IMG/VR virus record: IMGVR_UViG_3300032116_010479
Span: 1 to 29,984 of that record
Direction: 5' to 3' (one strand)
DNA length: 29,984 nucleotides
Source of the DNA: a virus
Below the pieces are notes generated by a model. It ran no database searches. It was given only the letters and a program-made list of their open reading frames with translations, and was not told the DNA's origin. Below, one piece after another: positions 1 to 25,556 of this stretch. Position 1 is the stretch's first letter. The number at the start of each line of letters is the position of its first letter. Made by a program: the position numbers and the translations under genes.

Positions 1-920
1 CCTGCATCTTTTGCTCCATTAGGATATATCTTACCATATGAGTGGGCTGCCCACAAGATGTTCTTATTTTTTAATTTAGCAGCAATAGATATTCCAAGCT
101 CTCTTCCTGCTGTATCTGCATCAGTCATCAATATAATCGTATTAAAATATCTATTTAGTAATTTTATATTGTCGTGAGATATATGTCCGCCTAAAGTTGC
201 TACAACATTTGGAAACCCCGCCTGATGTATTCTAATTGCATCGAATGTAGATTCAACAATAATTACCTTATCTCCAATACGCTTAGCCCTATGAATGTTA
301 AACATAGTTTTACTTCTTGGTAAATTGTTACTGTTCTTAAACTTCTTTTCTGATACAGACCTGCCAACTAAACCAACTGGGGTTCCGTCTGGACTATGAA
401 CTGGCACAATTACCATTCCTAAATTAGATGAATATCCTAATTTAAAGTAATGCATTGAATCTAAATTAATGCCTCGATGCTCAAGATATTCCTGTGCGTG
501 TTTATTTTTGCCAAGGTTATTGTATAGATCATCCAGCGTTTGCTGGGAAAATTCTACAAAGTCTGGCTTATCTTCAAACATAGACTTTAATTCTTCATCA
601 AAATTTTCCAAAGACTCTTGTTGTTTTGACTCTATATATCTTAAAGCTTGGTATTCATTTTTACCTAATGATTCTTTTACAAGATCCATTATGGTTCCAG
701 TCTTTCCGCAAGATGGGTTAAAGCAAATATATGCTCCCTTAGTACGGCTTACACTAAAGCTTGGCGTATGTCTATTTGAATGAAATGGACAATAAGATAA
801 ATAATCGTTAGATGTTTCTCCTGCAATATCTATGCCAAGACTTTTAATTACAGACTTTATGTGAGCTGGCGTGTATTCCGTTTGATTGGTTTGTTTTGGG
901 ATATACCCTCTAATTGCCAT
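1..920 (-). CDS. DNA primase, CHC2 zinc finger plus TOPRIM (3' end beyond window)
   Basis: Reading from ATG at 920, the frame stays open to the window edge (306 codons plus two bases), so the C-terminus is missing. An N-terminal primase zinc site has C44-x2-H47 (CPFH) and C66-x4-C71 (CFNPSC), the CHC2 pattern of DnaG-type primases. The TOPRIM fold follows, with the acidic residue E223 in VIIVESTFDA and the metal-binding D267-A-D269 in MTDADTAG. Such enzymes make RNA primers for lagging-strand synthesis and work with the replicative helicase, which is encoded just upstream. ATG 920 was chosen because it is the only start that keeps the zinc finger and has a purine-rich stretch (GAAGAGG) before it. 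This start lies inside the 3' end of the preceding 96-residue gene, an overlap of 64 bases. The family is clear; whether a helicase domain follows cannot be seen. Confidence 0.93.
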   Translation of the reverse strand, partial: MAIRGYIPKQTNQTEYTPAHIKSVIKSLGIDIAGETSNDYLSYCPFHSNRHTPSFSVSRTKGAYICFNPSCGKTGTIMDLVKESLGKNEYQALRYIESKQQESLENFDEELKSMFEDKPDFVEFSQQTLDDLYNNLGKNKHAQEYLEHRGINLDSMHYFKLGYSSNLGMVIVPVHSPDGTPVGLVGRSVSEKKFKNSNNLPRSKTMFNIHRAKRIGDKVIIVESTFDAIRIHQAGFPNVVATLGGHISHDNIKLLNRYFNTIILMTDADTAGRELGISIAAKLKNKNILWAAHSYGKIYPNGAKDA

Positions 921-1147
921 GCCCTCTTCTTTCCCACATAAATTCCATGGATAGTCATTAAGAACTTCCATGTCTCGCCTGTGAATTCTACCGAAAAAGC
1001 TGGGTCTATGTCAAGTACCCTAATATACCCAGCGTCACGCATCTGACTTATTAATAGATTTTCATATTGATTTCTGATTCTAATAATATCAGAATCATCA
1101 ATAAACTCTACCTCAACCTGAAATCGTTTTATTTTCTTGTGAGTCAT
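857..1147 (-). CDS. Conserved-looking phage protein of unknown function (96 aa)
   Basis: I do not recognise this protein. It is small, basic at the C-terminus (QNKPIKRNTRQLT) and has an alternating pattern that suggests a compact alpha/beta fold: a first strand (FQVEVEFID), a helix (IIRIRNQYENLLISQMRDAG), then strands (IRVLDID, SVEFTG, WKFLMTIHGIYVGK). No catalytic motif is visible. It starts with ATG inside the last 35 bases of the helicase gene and ends inside the first 64 bases of the primase gene, so it is translationally locked between the two replication enzymes. That position suggests a role in replication, for example an accessory or helicase-primase coupling factor, but this is only context. 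The gene is likely real because its frame gives a well-balanced protein with a good start. Confidence 0.7.
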   Translation of the reverse strand: MTHKKIKRFQVEVEFIDDSDIIRIRNQYENLLISQMRDAGYIRVLDIDPAFSVEFTGETWKFLMTIHGIYVGKKRAWQLEGISQNKPIKRNTRQLT

Positions 1148-2378
1148 TATTTAATTCTGGTAAATTTTCGTAGATAGGTTTAATAATTCCACGATTAATA
1201 TCCCAATCAAGGAAGAATCTAAAGTCATGTCCGTGACGATTCTTTCTAGAAACCACCTCAATCATATCTGTGTTAGCATGCTTGTGAATAGCAATAGCCA
1301 TATCGGCATCATACTCAATAGCCTTAGACCACGCAACCTGGCTCATCATAGGAGGCTCATCTTGATCTGATATGTCATCTGCAGTTGCAGCAGTAATATC
1401 TATAATTGGAATGTTGTTTGCTACTGCCAACAATTTAAAGTCTCTTGAAATATTTCTATTTCTTTCAACCTCTGAGTTACTACGTTTGTTGTCGTTAAAC
1501 AACTGATGATAGTCAAGAATAACTAAATCTGGTTTGTGTTGATCAATCTTTCCTTGAATTGTGGCAGGTGTGACTTCTGCTGTGCCTTCATTAGAAATAA
1601 GAATAAAGCTGTTCTTACCTTCCGTTGTTTTCTTTCCCCATGACCTGAAATCATCTAAATTAATATCTCCTTTTGAAAAATCGCTTGCACGGAATAGTCC
1701 AGAACCAAGCATTGTGTAAATACGATCACGCATATTCTCTGGTGCCATTTCCAGAGAAACAATCATTGGCTTAAAGCCTTGCTCCCATGCCTTGCAGGCT
1801 AGATAAGAAGTAAACCATGTCTTACCCCTTCCTGGCCATCCTATGGCCACTATAAGGTGTCCTGGAGCCATGCCTGTTGGGTATGCCTTATCAATTGCTT
1901 CGAACCCAGTTAAAATTCCTGGGCTTCCTCCCATAACAGTAGATCTTTCTTTTACAGACTGATAATGTCTTTCTGCTGATTCAATATCTGTAATATCAAC
2001 ATCTCTTACGTTATTTGTATATCTACTTAAGGTGGCCAATTGGCTTTGCATTGTGCCTAAAACTCTTGATGGAGCATCTTCTTTTAACGATGAACCTGCC
2101 TGCAGCATAATAGTTTTTAGCTTGGCAGCAACAAACTCATTTTTAAGTTTATCTAAGTAATAACCTGTTTCTGCTTTAGTTTGGACTGGCTCAAAATCTT
2201 TAAACTTATCTTGAAGCACTCCAACTTCTGGAACTGCCCTAAACTTATAATAGTAGCCTTTTAATCCCTCCCATATATCTTTATGGGAAGTAAATAGGTC
2301 ATCGGCATTATCGGCAAGAAGTGTGCTAATGTCTTTATTTTTACATACTGCAGAAATTAACTCTGCTTCGGTATTCAC
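1113..2378 (-). CDS. Replicative DNA helicase, DnaB/gp41-like RecA fold
   Basis: This is a hexameric replicative helicase of the DnaB superfamily (421 aa), which unwinds the phage fork using ATP. An all-alpha N-terminal region (about 1-140) precedes the RecA-like motor. Walker A is GWPGRGKTW with K186; the helix after it and the strand MIVSLEMAP match the DnaB H1/H1a region. Walker B is DLVILDYHQ with D289. A later segment (SWSKAIEYDADMAIAIHKH, give or take a residue) and the basic SRKNRHGHDF match the DnaB motif that ends in the arginine-finger region. The start is GTG at 2378, overlapping the upstream stop as GTGA after a GAAGAAGAG ribosome-binding site. It sits directly before the unknown 96-residue gene and the primase, a normal helicase-primase pair. 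The N-terminal region is shorter than in bacterial DnaB, as is usual for phage versions. Confidence 0.93.
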   Translation of the reverse strand: MNTEAELISAVCKNKDISTLLADNADDLFTSHKDIWEGLKGYYYKFRAVPEVGVLQDKFKDFEPVQTKAETGYYLDKLKNEFVAAKLKTIMLQAGSSLKEDAPSRVLGTMQSQLATLSRYTNNVRDVDITDIESAERHYQSVKERSTVMGGSPGILTGFEAIDKAYPTGMAPGHLIVAIGWPGRGKTWFTSYLACKAWEQGFKPMIVSLEMAPENMRDRIYTMLGSGLFRASDFSKGDINLDDFRSWGKKTTEGKNSFILISNEGTAEVTPATIQGKIDQHKPDLVILDYHQLFNDNKRSNSEVERNRNISRDFKLLAVANNIPIIDITAATADDISDQDEPPMMSQVAWSKAIEYDADMAIAIHKHANTDMIEVVSRKNRHGHDFRFFLDWDINRGIIKPIYENLPELNNDSQENKTISG

Positions 2379-2689
2379 TCTTCTTCAACCAACCTTTTTG
2401 TTTGTTCCAATAGGCGAGCCCTATTAGCTACATCTTTATTAATCTGTATCATCATATCTTCAAGCCTATCAAAATTATTATAAAAGAAATTTAATGGGTG
2501 CCCGTTTTTGCCTGTGCGAAAATAATAATTCAATACATCTTTTGCGCTGTCAAAACCTATGCTGTCTAATACGTCTTGCATGGCCCACTTTTCTTTATAC
2601 TTATTTATTCTAGGCTTCTTCCCATACTTCTGCTCATAGAGTGCCATATAAATAGTAAGCAGTATGTATGGTTCTTTATTTGTTGCCAT
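2375..2689 (-). CDS. Small protein upstream of helicase; possible helicase loader or DNA-binding protein (104 aa)
   Basis: No family is recognised with certainty. The protein looks mainly helical: ILLTIYMALYEQKYGKKP, then a lysine-rich turn (RINKYKEKW), a helix (MQDVLDSIGFDSAKDVLNYYF) and a C-terminal acidic helix (ARLLEQTKRLVEEE). The combination of a basic N-terminal half, an aromatic FRTGKNGHPLNFFYNNF stretch and its place immediately 5' of the replicative helicase fits a helicase loader or a DNA-binding replication accessory factor, but that is inferred from position. ATG 2689 lies in the last 14 bases of the preceding gene, and its stop overlaps the helicase GTG start (GTGA), so the three genes are probably translated as a coupled set. 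Confidence 0.75.
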   Translation of the reverse strand: MATNKEPYILLTIYMALYEQKYGKKPRINKYKEKWAMQDVLDSIGFDSAKDVLNYYFRTGKNGHPLNFFYNNFDRLEDMMIQINKDVANRARLLEQTKRLVEEE

Positions 2690-2942
2690 TTAGCTCTTCT
2701 TCAACCTCTTGAGTTTTTGCTATCAATTTACTTTCAACAAACTTATATACTCTGTCGGTAGCGGCATCAACTGACTCTCCATCTCTAACGTAATCATCAA
2801 CGCCAATACCTATTTTTATGCTTTCAAAGTTTCCTAAATTTCTGGTAAATGATAAATCAACTCTAACTTGAGTTGGTGGCTTCCAATTAAAATAAGGCAA
2901 TTCCATATCATTTTGTTTTGGCTGTAGTGGTTCAAATCCCAT
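2676..2942 (-). CDS. Unknown replication-operon protein (88 aa)
   Basis: I do not recognise the function. The chain begins with a proline-rich stretch (MGFEPLQPKQNDMELPYF), followed by a strand (VRVDLSFTRN), a second strand (FESIKIGIGVDDYVRDGES) and a C-terminal amphipathic helix (ATDRVYKFVESKLIAKTQEVEEEL). This alpha/beta layout with a charged C-terminal helix recalls small phage proteins that lie beside single-strand-binding or recombination genes, but no motif proves it. It starts at an ATG that shares its A with the stop of the small zinc-finger gene (TAATG), and its end overlaps the following gene, so it belongs to a tightly coupled operon. Confidence 0.75.
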   Translation of the reverse strand: MGFEPLQPKQNDMELPYFNWKPPTQVRVDLSFTRNLGNFESIKIGIGVDDYVRDGESVDAATDRVYKFVESKLIAKTQEVEEELNGNK

Positions 2943-3049
2943 TAGTGTTCCGCCTTTCTATGTCTGCTCAATGTGTCGTGGCCAAATATGCCCCAACGCA
3001 ATTCTATTTCCTTTTTACATATCTCACAGACAACCACCCTGTTTGACAT
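2942..3049 (-). CDS. Tiny zinc-finger protein (35 aa)
   Basis: Found by direct translation of a 106-base gap between two genes. The product begins MSNRVVVCEICKKEIELRW and ends GHDTLSRHRKAEH. C8-x2-C11 followed by paired histidines (H24, and H30 or H35) gives a C2H2-type zinc-finger pattern, with a basic SRHRK stretch that could touch nucleic acid. The evidence for expression is strong: the ATG at 3049 shares its A with the TAA of the preceding gene, a GGAGGGCGGA ribosome-binding site lies just upstream, and the TAA at the end shares its last A with the ATG of the next gene. Both junctions are TAATG. It may be a DNA- or RNA-binding regulator or a small adaptor; the target is unknown. Confidence 0.82.
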   Translation of the reverse strand: MSNRVVVCEICKKEIELRWGIFGHDTLSRHRKAEH

Positions 3050-3531
3050 TATTCCGCCCTCCATACTGGTACAAAGTTGCCCTCGTTAGTCTTAGTATAC
3101 AATATTGTATTGTGTTTGAGAAGAGCTTTTAATTCTGTTTTTGATGGCATATTTTTAGAATATCCTGATTCTAAAATAAATTCATGTATGTCCATTATGT
3201 CCGATTCACTATACATAAATTTATACCAATCACTTTCAGGATTACTTATTGGGTAAACTTTTTGTGGATATTTTATTTTCCCATCTAATATGTAATCTTC
3301 AATAGTGATCTTGTGCTTATTTAGTATTTGTGAAACCTGTTTAGTTGAATATGCATTTTCCATATTCTTAACTACTTGAGAGTAAGAATATAGAACACGC
3401 TTTTTGTCTGGATAACACCAAGCAATCAATTCATCTTTTGCCCTAGAATAATTTAATACTTTGTGTATTTTATTATTTAAGAAGAAATAGCTAAATCTTT
3501 TAGTTTGTTTTTTTCTGCTTGCTCTAACCAT
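3049..3531 (-). CDS. Putative DNA-binding protein with helix-turn-helix-like segment (160 aa)
   Basis: The N-terminus is strongly basic (MVRASRKKQTKRF). The central part has a pattern like an excisionase or MerR-type winged helix-turn-helix: AYSTKQVSQILNKHKITIED followed by YILDGKIKYPQKVYPI, that is, a helix pair, then a short wing leading to a proline. A C-terminal helical segment (ESDIMDIHEFILESG) follows. This suggests a DNA-binding regulator or recombination-directionality-like protein; no enzyme motif is seen. The ATG at 3531 has an AGGA four bases ahead and lies 54 bases inside the upstream zinc-ribbon gene; no later ATG would keep the basic tail. The stop overlaps the start of the tiny zinc-finger gene as TAATG. 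Three consecutive small nucleic-acid-binding candidates thus follow the metallophosphoesterase. The function is inferred from pattern only. Confidence 0.72.
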   Translation of the reverse strand: MVRASRKKQTKRFSYFFLNNKIHKVLNYSRAKDELIAWCYPDKKRVLYSYSQVVKNMENAYSTKQVSQILNKHKITIEDYILDGKIKYPQKVYPISNPESDWYKFMYSESDIMDIHEFILESGYSKNMPSKTELKALLKHNTILYTKTNEGNFVPVWRAE

Positions 3532-3665
3532 CGTCCTAGTGAACTTGTATCCTTATTAAGCATCCACCGTTTCCCACACATTATGCAAAACAGCTCTACA
3601 TGTAGTTTTTGTGAAAATACTCTGTCTACAAAAACTCTTCCTCGGCATTTACTGCACTTCATCAT
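3477..3665 (-). CDS. Small zinc-ribbon protein (62 aa)
   Basis: The product starts MMKCSKCRGRVF and holds two CxxC pairs, C4-x2-C7 and C27-x2-C30, spaced by 19 residues with a CGK turn after the second pair. This is a classical zinc ribbon, as in rubredoxin-like and transcription-factor-like folds. The C-terminus (WLEQAEKNKLKDLA) is a charged helix. I place the start at ATG 3665, which overlaps the TGA of the metallophosphoesterase gene as ATGA, with AAGGTG eight bases upstream; a second ATG follows at 3662. The longer frame from 3695 would add ten residues inside the previous gene without a good ribosome-binding site. Likely role: nucleic-acid or protein binding; the partner is unknown. Confidence 0.8.
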   Translation of the reverse strand: MMKCSKCRGRVFVDRVFSQKLHVELFCIMCGKRWMLNKDTSSLGRWLEQAEKNKLKDLAISS

Positions 3666-4462
3666 AATGTAAACACCTTGCCATCTACAACACATGAATA
3701 ATCTGGAGCAATATGAATCATTTGAATATGTGGGTAATCATTTACAATATGTGCAATTGCAAATCCTTTTTGCCAATCATGATGTTGCATATACTTCATT
3801 CCTGGGCCTTTTTCATCACACATATGCCCAATTTCATATCCACGAATTGTTTCTCCAGCTCCATCATTTCGCAATTCATATGTTTGCAAATGTGATGCGA
3901 TTCTGTGTGAATGCCCACGAATTAATGATATTTGTAAATCATTCATGTCTTTTCTAACAGCACCAGTATCAGCAATTGATAACCCATGATGAACATGTAT
4001 GTCGCCAAAGCGACGTTTAGGCAATTCGTTGTAGTGGATATATTCGTAACCTAAAGAGTCTAAACTCCACAAAGCCTCTGGAGTAACTTCATTAATATAA
4101 TCGGGAAGCTTTGCATCTATGTAATTAAAAACTCTAATATCATGATTTCCTAATGCTGAAAACAATTGTGCATCTGGAAGCATCTCTCTTGTCTTGGCAT
4201 AAAAATCACGAGCACCTTTAGCCTCATGCCTCATCATGGGAACAATAAGATCTCTGCTGTCTGTTTTATGAAGATTTAGAAACTCTGCAGATCTTCCTTC
4301 TGTATACTTGCTATAACAAGCCTGATCATCTGTATCTCCAAGATAGTCTACAACGTCTGGCTTAAACCACTTCATAACCTTAAACCATAAAGATATTGCT
4401 TTGTCGTCTTGATAGGGAAATTGTTGATCGGATGACAGCATCCATTTCAAATCATTTGTCAT
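3662..4462 (-). CDS. Calcineurin-like metallophosphoesterase (266 aa)
   Basis: The five metal-site blocks of the calcineurin-like phosphoesterase fold are present in order: SSDQQ (D12), LGDTDD (G42-D43, with D46), LGNHD (N106-H107-D108), HVHHG (H156, H158, H159) and GHSH (H184, H186). The enzyme would hold two metal ions and cleave phosphomonoesters or phosphodiesters, for example nucleotides or nucleic-acid ends. Block I normally reads D-x-H; here it is D-x-Q (Q14), an unusual change at a metal ligand. It is the first gene after the promoter at 4537-4510 and has an AGGTGT ribosome-binding site before ATG 4462, so it opens the replication operon. Phage members of this family act in nucleotide metabolism, DNA repair or end-processing; the substrate cannot be told from sequence. 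Confidence 0.9.
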   Translation of the reverse strand: MTNDLKWMLSSDQQFPYQDDKAISLWFKVMKWFKPDVVDYLGDTDDQACYSKYTEGRSAEFLNLHKTDSRDLIVPMMRHEAKGARDFYAKTREMLPDAQLFSALGNHDIRVFNYIDAKLPDYINEVTPEALWSLDSLGYEYIHYNELPKRRFGDIHVHHGLSIADTGAVRKDMNDLQISLIRGHSHRIASHLQTYELRNDGAGETIRGYEIGHMCDEKGPGMKYMQHHDWQKGFAIAHIVNDYPHIQMIHIAPDYSCVVDGKVFTL

Positions 4463-4509
4463 TAAACACCTAAATATATACGCAAATACTTTATATTAGC
4501 GTAGTAAGA

Positions 4510-4537
4510 ATTGTAACATAAATAAACAGATTGTCAA
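4510..4537 (-). promoter_or_regulatory. Strong sigma70-type promoter for the replication operon
   Basis: On the minus strand a perfect -35 box TTGACA (4537-4532) is followed by a 16-base spacer and a -10 box TACAAT (4515-4510), matching five of six consensus bases. The predicted start is near 4503, about 40 bases before the metallophosphoesterase ATG. The -35 box lies in the loop of the hairpin described separately, so folding or protein binding at the hairpin could affect the promoter. It is the best consensus promoter I found in the window. Confidence 0.75.
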
Positions 4538-4553
4538 TACTATCTGTTTATTT
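4520..4553 (-). terminator. Perfect 12-bp inverted repeat at end of the tail operon; terminator or operator
   Basis: Arms 4520-4531 (AAATAAACAGAT) and 4542-4553 (ATCTGTTTATTT) are exact inverted repeats around a 10-base loop. The stop codon of the lectin-like gene (4542-4540) lies at the arm-loop junction. In the minus-strand transcript the 3' arm ends in TTTATTT, so a weak intrinsic terminator is possible, but the stem is AT-rich and no long U run follows. Because the loop contains the TTGACA of the next promoter, a dyad operator for a repressor is an equal alternative. Confidence 0.6.
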
Positions 4554-4965
4554 GCTTTTCAGCTACTGCAATGTAATTTACAACAACACCTTTGGCATAG
4601 TTAACATTTGATGAATTTACAGTAATGGTGCCAGTGTTGATTCCAGTCGCTTTTGCGGAAACTGAAAACTGAACATTGTCACTGTTTAATGCTTTAGTAA
4701 TAGAAGCAACTATTGTAGGTGTTGTTGAAAATTTATTTCCAAAATTAATTGTAGCCTGACCCTTACCTCCAGTTAATTGCACTGTTACATCGTTTCCATA
4801 AACTATTGGTAAAGTAGACTCTGTTTGTCCATTATTTGATGTTGCGTCTAACAAATTACTTGCCTGAGTGTAGACATAAGTAATATTTGTCATTAACTGA
4901 TTTAATGCAGAAGGATCTATTGGGGCACCCTCATAAAACGTTATTGGATTCCACTTGTCTGACAT
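4540..4965 (-). CDS. Small tail-tip protein with H-type-lectin-like domain; receptor-binding candidate (141 aa)
   Basis: The N-terminal 35 residues (MSDKWNPITFYEGAPIDPSA, then LNQLMTNITYVYTQ) look like an attachment helix. The rest is a beta-rich domain: VTVQLTGGKGQATINFGNKF, STTPTIVASI, NVQFSVSAKATGINTGTITV and VVVNYIAVAEK. The order, a strand ending in F, then TPTIVASI, then a TGTITVNSS strand and a final VNYIAVAE strand, resembles H-type lectin domains, which bind sugars on trimeric proteins and occur at tail-fibre ends. It follows the S74 fibre and the coiled-coil gene, so a host-binding tip protein is a reasonable inference. ATG 4965 has an ideal AAGGAGGA site and shares its A with the upstream TAA. 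It is the last gene before the hairpin. Confidence 0.75.
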   Translation of the reverse strand: MSDKWNPITFYEGAPIDPSALNQLMTNITYVYTQASNLLDATSNNGQTESTLPIVYGNDVTVQLTGGKGQATINFGNKFSTTPTIVASITKALNSDNVQFSVSAKATGINTGTITVNSSNVNYAKGVVVNYIAVAEKQINR

Positions 4966-24042: not shown

Positions 24043-24704
24043 TTACTCCTTAGAGTAGCCCAACCCCATTCCAACTCCGAATCCAGCTTCTGCGGCAAAT
24101 GCACCTCGTAGTGAAACTACATCGTCAGCGCTTGTATCAATACCCATAGCTTTTCTTCGGACATCGTCAAAAGTTTTGGTCTCCTCTTTATCTTGTCCAT
24201 CTCTCAGGTCTACACCTTGTAGTGATGCCAAGAATATTCTATTTTCTTGATCAGCCTTTTGTTTTGCTTTTAATGTTAAAAGCACTTCTGGCATTGAAAG
24301 GCTGCTCTCTATTTCATCGTAACTTTTCCAGTTACCAAGAAGAAATAGTTCTCCTAATAGTGCGGCAATATCTAGTTCTGACCAGCTAGAACCGCTGCCG
24401 CCATCAGGTTTGGGTCGTCCATTTTAATACCTCCACAAACTTCAAGGATGCGGTTGATTGTTGGGACGTCCAATGCGTCTTCTAATGCATCACGATCAGC
24501 AACTAAATCTGGTAGTTGCTTTTCTAATGCCACTGCACAAGCGTCGATAAGAATAGTTAGTGTCTCATCTTCGTTTTGAACTGTTGCTGTCTTTTGAATT
24601 GCCGTCATAAACTTACGAAGCTCTTTAATCGTAAGCGGCTTTAGAGTGACTTTTGCGCCATTCTGTAATTGAATTTCTTCTACGTCATATACTGTTGTAG
24701 CCAA
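24043..24704 (-). CDS. Tail assembly chaperone, long form made by -1 frameshift (220 aa)
   Basis: Ribosomes reading the short chaperone can slip back one base at CCCAAAC (24414-24408): 99 codons are read from 24704 to 24408, base 24408 is read twice, and 121 further codons follow to the stop at 24045-24043. The extension begins PDGGSGSSWSELDIAALLGE and runs through LLGNWKSYDEIESSLSMPEV into LLTLKAKQKADQEN and a glycine-rich end (FGVGMGLGYSKE). The downstream frame is open all the way back to the slip site and has no convincing start of its own. This is the known gpG/gpGT arrangement of siphophages, in which both forms coat the tape measure while the tube is built. The gene lies directly before the tape measure. 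Confidence 0.92.
24372..24704 (-). CDS. Tail assembly chaperone, short form (110 aa)
   Basis: This is the product of normal decoding. It starts at TTG 24704, with a strong AAAGGAGGA site seven bases upstream; no ATG is better placed. The sequence (MATTVYDVEEIQLQNGAKVT, LKPLTIKELRKFMTAIQK, DALDVPTINRILEVCGG) is typical of siphophage tail chaperones: a strand pair followed by helices and an acidic C-terminal segment. It ends at the TAG 24374-24372, eleven codons after the slip site. It binds the tape measure and recruits tube subunits; it is not expected in the finished virion. A terminator and a promoter precede it, so its level can differ from that of the tube protein. Confidence 0.93.
   Translation of the reverse strand: MATTVYDVEEIQLQNGAKVTLKPLTIKELRKFMTAIQKTATVQNEDETLTILIDACAVALEKQLPDLVADRDALEDALDVPTINRILEVCGGIKMDDPNLMAAAVLAGQN
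24408..24414 (-). other. Programmed -1 ribosomal frameshift site CCCAAAC
   Basis: The heptamer is in the correct phase (C CCA AAC) for tandem slippage to CCC AAA. Fourteen bases downstream, GGTTCT (24393-24388) can pair with AGAACT (24379-24374) around an eight-base loop, with one G-U pair. This small hairpin covers part of the zero-frame stop and could stimulate slipping, though it is weak. Confidence 0.9.
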
Positions 24705-24784: not shown

Positions 24785-24809
24785 TATTTATTAATAATTA
24801 AATTAATTA

Positions 24810-25556
24810 TTAAACTTCAAGAACACGATCAATAATTACGCCGTATTCTTTTCCAGTGTAGTCTTTATATGCAGCTGGTGTTCCAACTGTATTTGAAGAC
24901 TGGCTCTTTGGAAGAAGACGGAATGTTACTGGGAATGTTGTTGGTGTGGTACGAGCAAGCGAGAACTGTGATTGCTGTACTGACAATACACGACGAGCAT
25001 AATAAATACGCTCTGTACGTGCTAATGCAGTACCGTCATCTGCTGTTGTAGGAGCATTTCCTACAGCAACTAATTGACGCTCTGTTGGCTGTACGCCAAG
25101 AGCTCCTGCTTCAAGACCCAAAGTGTCTGTTGCACCTGTTCCAGAACCTGTTGATGTTAATGTATCGTTTCCTTGTCCAAAAACAACTAGAATATTTGCT
25201 AGTGTACCTTCGGACATTTCTGTTGCAATCATAACCTCCATAGCAGACTTGAAAAGCTTAGCTGTATCAAGCAACTGATCTACGGTAACAGAGTCATATG
25301 TTGGATTATAGGTAATTTGAAGACCATTGTTGGTATAACCAACGTTTCTCCATTTAGCTGTAGCTGAATTTGAATCGTATGCATCATTAAGAGTCTTAGT
25401 ATAAGAAACTCCATTAGCGAATGCAACTCCACCCAAATCAGCATCGTTTGGCACTAGGTCTGCGCTGTAGTCAGAGCCTTGTGTCGAATCTGTTGTGGAC
25501 AAAAAAAGCGGAGAAGCACCAACGATGATGTTTCTGGCCTCATTGTATTTTGCCAT
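24810..25556 (-). CDS. Major tail tube protein (248 aa)
   Basis: The sequence (MAKYNEARNIIVGASPLFLS, GLQITYNPTYDSVTVDQLLD, AKLFKSAMEVMIATEMSEGT, TTFPVTFRLLPKSQS, GKEYGVIIDRVLEV) has the strand-helix-strand layout of siphophage tube subunits, whose hexameric rings stack around the tape measure. Length and position (after the tail terminator, before the chaperones) agree. It has the best ribosome-binding site of the window (AGGAGG six bases before ATG) and its own terminator 26 bases downstream, as expected for an abundant protein. Its base composition looks richer in G and C than the fibre genes. A low-complexity loop (TSTGSGTGATDT) near the middle is probably surface-exposed. Confidence 0.92.
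   Translation of the reverse strand: MAKYNEARNIIVGASPLFLSTTDSTQGSDYSADLVPNDADLGGVAFANGVSYTKTLNDAYDSNSATAKWRNVGYTNNGLQITYNPTYDSVTVDQLLDTAKLFKSAMEVMIATEMSEGTLANILVVFGQGNDTLTSTGSGTGATDTLGLEAGALGVQPTERQLVAVGNAPTTADDGTALARTERIYYARRVLSVQQSQFSLARTTPTTFPVTFRLLPKSQSSNTVGTPAAYKDYTGKEYGVIIDRVLEV

Follow-up and report, generated by a model that had tools for sequence, protein, structure and literature searches.

A conserved promoter and leader hairpin, rather than the inverted repeat over the promoter, appear to form a phage tail–replication junction

At the point where the tail genes of this virus end and its replication genes begin, a perfect inverted repeat overlaps a promoter. Does this repeat end the late operon and start or repress the replication operon as a single compact switch, as a sequence-only reading had proposed, or is the junction organized by other elements? 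We analysed the window (the whole stretch of 29,984 bases, which is the complete record and itself a fragment) together with its relatives. The DNA upstream of the phosphoesterase gene was collected from 163 loci (the window and relatives, with some contigs entered twice), which yielded 82 distinct sequences.

All long genes in the junction region lie on the minus strand. Upstream of the junction are a long tail protein with a Peptidase_S74 (endosialidase chaperone) domain, a 52-aa protein, and a lectin-like protein of 141 aa (4540–4965), the last tail gene, which carries an H-type lectin domain (Pfam PF09458, E 4.9e-6). The downstream operon begins with a metallophosphoesterase (3662–4462; phrog_221, E 1e-52) and continues with an HTH-like protein (3049–3531; HTH_17 weak, E 0.007; phrog_9440), a DnaB-like helicase, and a primase. 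For the phosphoesterase, 586 relatives were confirmed in IMG/VR; some distant mycobacteriophage relatives are annotated as recombination directionality factors. A pattern search of IMG/VR for relatives of the tail protein returned none. The lectin-like tail gene is hypervariable while its flanking genes are conserved: its relatives, which occur in 7 loci and in none of the closest phages, share at most 35% aa identity. No contig matched when the host was sought through the phosphoesterase in bacterial genomes; judging from the phage relatives, the host is probably an actinobacterium.

The inverted repeat was confirmed. Its arms, AAATAAACAGAT (4520–4531, inside the promoter spacer) and ATCTGTTTATTT (4542–4553, the last codons of the tail gene), are complementary at 12 of 12 positions around a 10-nt loop. 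In an extended form, 15-nt arms are complementary at 14 of 15 positions (93%) and enclose a 4-nt loop. The stop codon of the tail gene does lie within the structure, with TAG (4542–4540, minus strand) overlapping the inner base of one arm, and TACAAT does stand 16 bases from TTGACA. The placement of TTGACA in the loop holds for most of the hexamer, but its last bases pair in the 15-nt form. Within the window, this is the sole perfect inverted repeat of at least 12 bp with a loop of up to 30 nt. Such a repeat was present in 26 of 300 dinucleotide shuffles, or in 10 of 300 with the loop limited to 10 nt, and a 14/15 repeat with a loop of up to 10 nt was present in 8 of 500. The dyad, equalled in 1.6–9% of shuffles and picked after looking, is a modest surprise.

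None of the relatives carries the 12-bp dyad; among the 82 distinct junctions, the window included, it belongs to one record only. No exact copy was found in IMG/VR in either of two forms at spacings of 3–20. The closest relatives, L001 and L002, are 88% identical to positions 1–4541 of the window, with 99.6% aa identity in the phosphoesterase and 90% in the HTH-like protein. They have the promoter and leader of the window and a different tail gene, and the promoter spacer contains ACCCTAAGAATT where the window has ATCTGTTTATTT. Relative to these two phages, the dyad corresponds to about 8 changes in 12 bases with unchanged flanks. The DNA similarity to them stops at the stop codon and −35 box; the downstream exchange boundary of the lectin-like gene coincides with the −35 box. 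As a family trait, dyads near the −35 box were not supported (mean fold z −0.65 over 48 clusters, with 3 below −2.5). L036, L056, and L136 have inverted repeats of their own that take in the −35 hexamer and are unrelated to this dyad (TATTGACAC/GTGTCAATA; AATCTGTCA/TGACAGATT). A role of the dyad as a terminator, operator, or switch is not supported, since every relative examined, the nearest included, is without it. The sequence-only reading had itself named absence in close relatives as a refuting result; by that criterion the dyad switch is refuted, and the promoter survives.

The promoter (4510–4537, minus strand) is composed of TTGACA (4537–4532), a 16-bp spacer, and an extended −10 element, ATGT with TACAAT (4515–4510), an 11/12 match with TG before the −10. 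The arrangement TTGACA-16-TAnnnT with ATGY (ATGT or ATGC) before the −10 is present in 71 of the 82 distinct junctions. In these 71, TTGACA, the ATG, and the T, A, and final T of the −10 are invariant and the spacer length is always 16; across junctions, no other part of the promoter varies as freely in sequence as this spacer. With hexamers 16 bp apart, within the 16–18 bp of the class, the TG, and conservation in relatives, the element has the properties of a sigma-70/SigA-type extended −10 promoter. In 64 of 70 junctions, the tail stop codon ends 0–17 bp ahead of TTGACA; in the other 6, it ends 4 bp inside the hexamer. The site, proposed earlier as the end of the tail genes and the promoter of the next operon, is a true operon junction with a strongly conserved promoter. 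The comparison supports the assignment of this promoter, which is kept almost unchanged in dozens of related phages, to the phosphoesterase-helicase-primase operon.

In most relatives, a stem follows the −10 element (e.g., AAAGTCACG-TACC-CGTGACTTTTTT), and in nearly all of them it starts 12–15 nt past the −10. Compared with shuffles, the leader fold has a mean z of −4.5 over 48 clusters, and compensatory changes were found in 7 of 9 hairpin pairs among 29 representatives. For this hairpin and a second stem together, 28 cells had changes on both sides, compared with 7.1 in shuffles, and none of 500 shuffles reached that number; these counts are inflated by sequence relatedness, and sliding the partner columns by 1–3 left only 1–8 such cells. 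The conserved order in the sequences compared is tail stop codon, promoter, leader hairpin of 7–11 bp, usually with a T-tract, and phosphoesterase-replication operon. The promoter therefore occupies the gap between stop codon and putative terminator. Hairpins in L136, L138, and L165 are without a T-tract, and L003/L006 have no clear leader hairpin. In the subgroup of the window (the window and L001–L012), the standard hairpin is lost or replaced by weaker, T-poor ones. The leader hairpin of the window itself (TACGC-T-AATAT-AAA-GTATT-T-GCGTA, 4479–4503, minus strand) lies at the predicted transcript start; by position it appears to be the counterpart of the family's leader terminator, and it is T-poor downstream. 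No known RNA family was found in the window.

The second stem, ATGYTACA/TGTARCAT, surrounds the −10 in L013 and its relatives, with two covarying pairs and 3–7 nt loops in its strong forms. Its left arm is outside any transcript started here; any action of the stem would therefore have to be at the DNA level or in read-through RNA. Neither stem was found more than once per genome searched, apart from a few inexact matches of the second. The −10 dyad TGTTACA-N5-TGTAACA was considered as the operator of a network and rejected, with exact matches only at the junction and few others at one mismatch. The leader hairpin was likewise rejected as a repeated terminator cassette, with at most one copy per genome searched.

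Terminator strength was scored by the formula of d'Aubenton Carafa and colleagues. The leader hairpins of L013, L021, L034, L036, L056, L077, and L099 score from 2 to 13.6; in the window, the dyad scores −28 and −30 on the two strands and the leader hairpin −52. The dyad was not called as a terminator in a scan and lacks the combination of a G+C-rich stem and a T-run. The leader hairpins of the seven relatives just named have this combination; those of L136, L138, L165, and the window's subgroup do not. Termination fell from ~90% to <10% when the distance between a stop codon and a terminator behind it was shortened from 28 to 5 bp, and ribosomes at an overlapping stop codon repress terminators (PMC4824070). 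With a score of −28 and an arm that overlaps the stop codon, the dyad would be expected to terminate poorly. The leader hairpins of the relatives lie about 40 nt or more past the tail stop codon, and several have scores above zero; we infer that they end the tail transcripts. Since the standard hairpin is weakened or lost in the window's subgroup, termination at the window's own junction is uncertain.

Elsewhere in the window, the usual terminator-then-promoter order, opposite to that of the 4.5-kb junction, was observed. At 24785–24731 (minus strand), a strong intrinsic terminator (AGCCCCC-AGAAAT-GGGGGCT, score 11.0) precedes TTGTAT-17-TATAAT, which has ATGC in front of its −10, and a gene starting at 24704 comes next. 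Just before this terminator, an A+T-only inverted repeat with 10-nt arms (24791–24813) lies at a gene end.

The dyad might instead be an operator, with a dimeric repressor of the phage lineage or the host bound to both half-sites and covering the −35 box. The half-sites are 22 bp apart from centre to centre, which is a two-turn spacing, their symmetry is perfect, the −35 box is overlapped, and the HTH-like protein encoded in the operon had been named as a candidate binder. However, the 30-kb window, a fragment, has no second half-site with 0 or 1 mismatch, and its matches with 2 mismatches are at chance level. In the relatives, matches with 0–1 mismatch are scattered and about as frequent as those of a backward control, and the half-site was rejected as a repeated operator. 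The dyad is not conserved together with the proposed regulator, being absent from relatives whose HTH protein is 83–90% identical (90% in L001/L002), and IMG/VR holds no exact dyad. An operator at this place is therefore unlikely in our judgement. We also think it fairly unlikely that the dyad serves as a weak terminator, perhaps in both directions, or as a 3′-end hairpin of the tail mRNA that replaces the lost leader terminator of the subgroup. Its RNA fold (−12.1 kcal/mol, z −4.0), its T-rich 3′ arm, and a score of −28, the best at the window's junction (the leader hairpin has −52), agree with such a role, as does a subgroup devoid of the standard leader terminator. However, the score is negative on both strands, there are few G-C pairs, and ribosomes should melt a dyad that has the stop codon in its arm (PMC4824070); the close relatives L001 and L012 have neither the dyad nor a standard terminator.

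The model in which a single dyad would terminate the late operon and also act as the switch of the replication operon has in its favor that the dyad sits at a true operon junction, over a true promoter. It is nevertheless very improbable, because no relative keeps the dyad, though the promoter, the HTH-like protein, and the operon are kept. The interpretation given in the sequence-only reading is thus partly supported: the family does seem to possess a compact element that ends one gene set and starts the next, made up of the promoter and the leader hairpin and not of the dyad. We consider it probable that these two elements are the conserved core and that the 12-bp dyad is a lineage-private extra outside it. 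Two points count against the view of a private repeat: a perfect 12-bp dyad is somewhat improbable by chance, and its position exactly over the promoter could reflect a function.

According to the promoter-and-hairpin explanation, a housekeeping-sigma-type promoter would start the phosphoesterase-helicase-primase operon a few bases past the stop codon of the last tail gene. The family leader hairpin, mostly with a T-tract, would most likely end the transcripts coming from the tail genes. The promoter would fill the clearance between stop codon and hairpin, so that the ribosome leaves the hairpin free to fold. Transcripts of the promoter itself would run into the leader hairpin soon after their start, so that partial read-through or some form of control may be proposed. 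The dyad may have arisen at the point where the exchangeable lectin-like gene abuts the promoter spacer, which varies freely, through chance or through template switching as the DNA replicated, and any effect of it would be local at most. The roughly 8 clustered changes fit template switching but do not prove it. The dyad is probably a by-product at the exchange boundary of the hypervariable lectin-like gene.

Cluster O mycobacteriophages likewise have sigma-70-like (SigA-like) promoters at operon starts and dyad-symmetric repeats (PMC4351075). There, however, a single 17-bp dyad sequence recurs in more than 30 copies, most of them not at promoters (PMC4351075), whereas the dyad of the window occurs once, overlaps a promoter, and was found in this phage alone. 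In lambdoid late operons (PR′-tR′) with Q (PMC6606751) and in the AlpA system (PMC9371919), the transcript of a promoter also meets a downstream intrinsic terminator. In the family studied here, the hairpin starts no more than ~15 nt from the −10, and a tail gene precedes it as well. The gene order resembles that of Rhodococcus and Streptomyces phages. Phages of Stanwilliamsviridae, Weaselvirus, and Trinavirus (Comrade, Grayson, and NiceHouse) share the order of minor tail gene, small genes, and phosphoesterase, with an HTH protein and a helicase further on in Comrade and NiceHouse and a primase in Comrade, but other genes lie between. The 14-bp gap before the phosphoesterase gene of NiceHouse leaves no room for such a junction. 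Little usable literature was found on this order of promoter and terminator.

These observations replace a one-phage curiosity with a conserved, testable junction common to many related phages, in which stop codon, promoter, and then terminator stand in the reverse of the usual order. Exchange of the lectin-like tail genes has its boundary at the promoter, and symmetry over a promoter, however striking, can be no more than noise of a lineage. More tentatively, an actinobacteriophage-like family may use a junction of ~75 bp in which the promoter lies between the tail stop codon and a covarying leader terminator, which the operon's own transcript would meet after ~30 nt. Expression would then need read-through or antitermination, and in some lineages further inverted repeats over the promoter, such as the 12-bp dyad or the covarying ATGYTACA/TGTARCAT stem, would tune it. 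Should the leader hairpin act as a terminator, these phages would control their replication genes by attenuation or antitermination.
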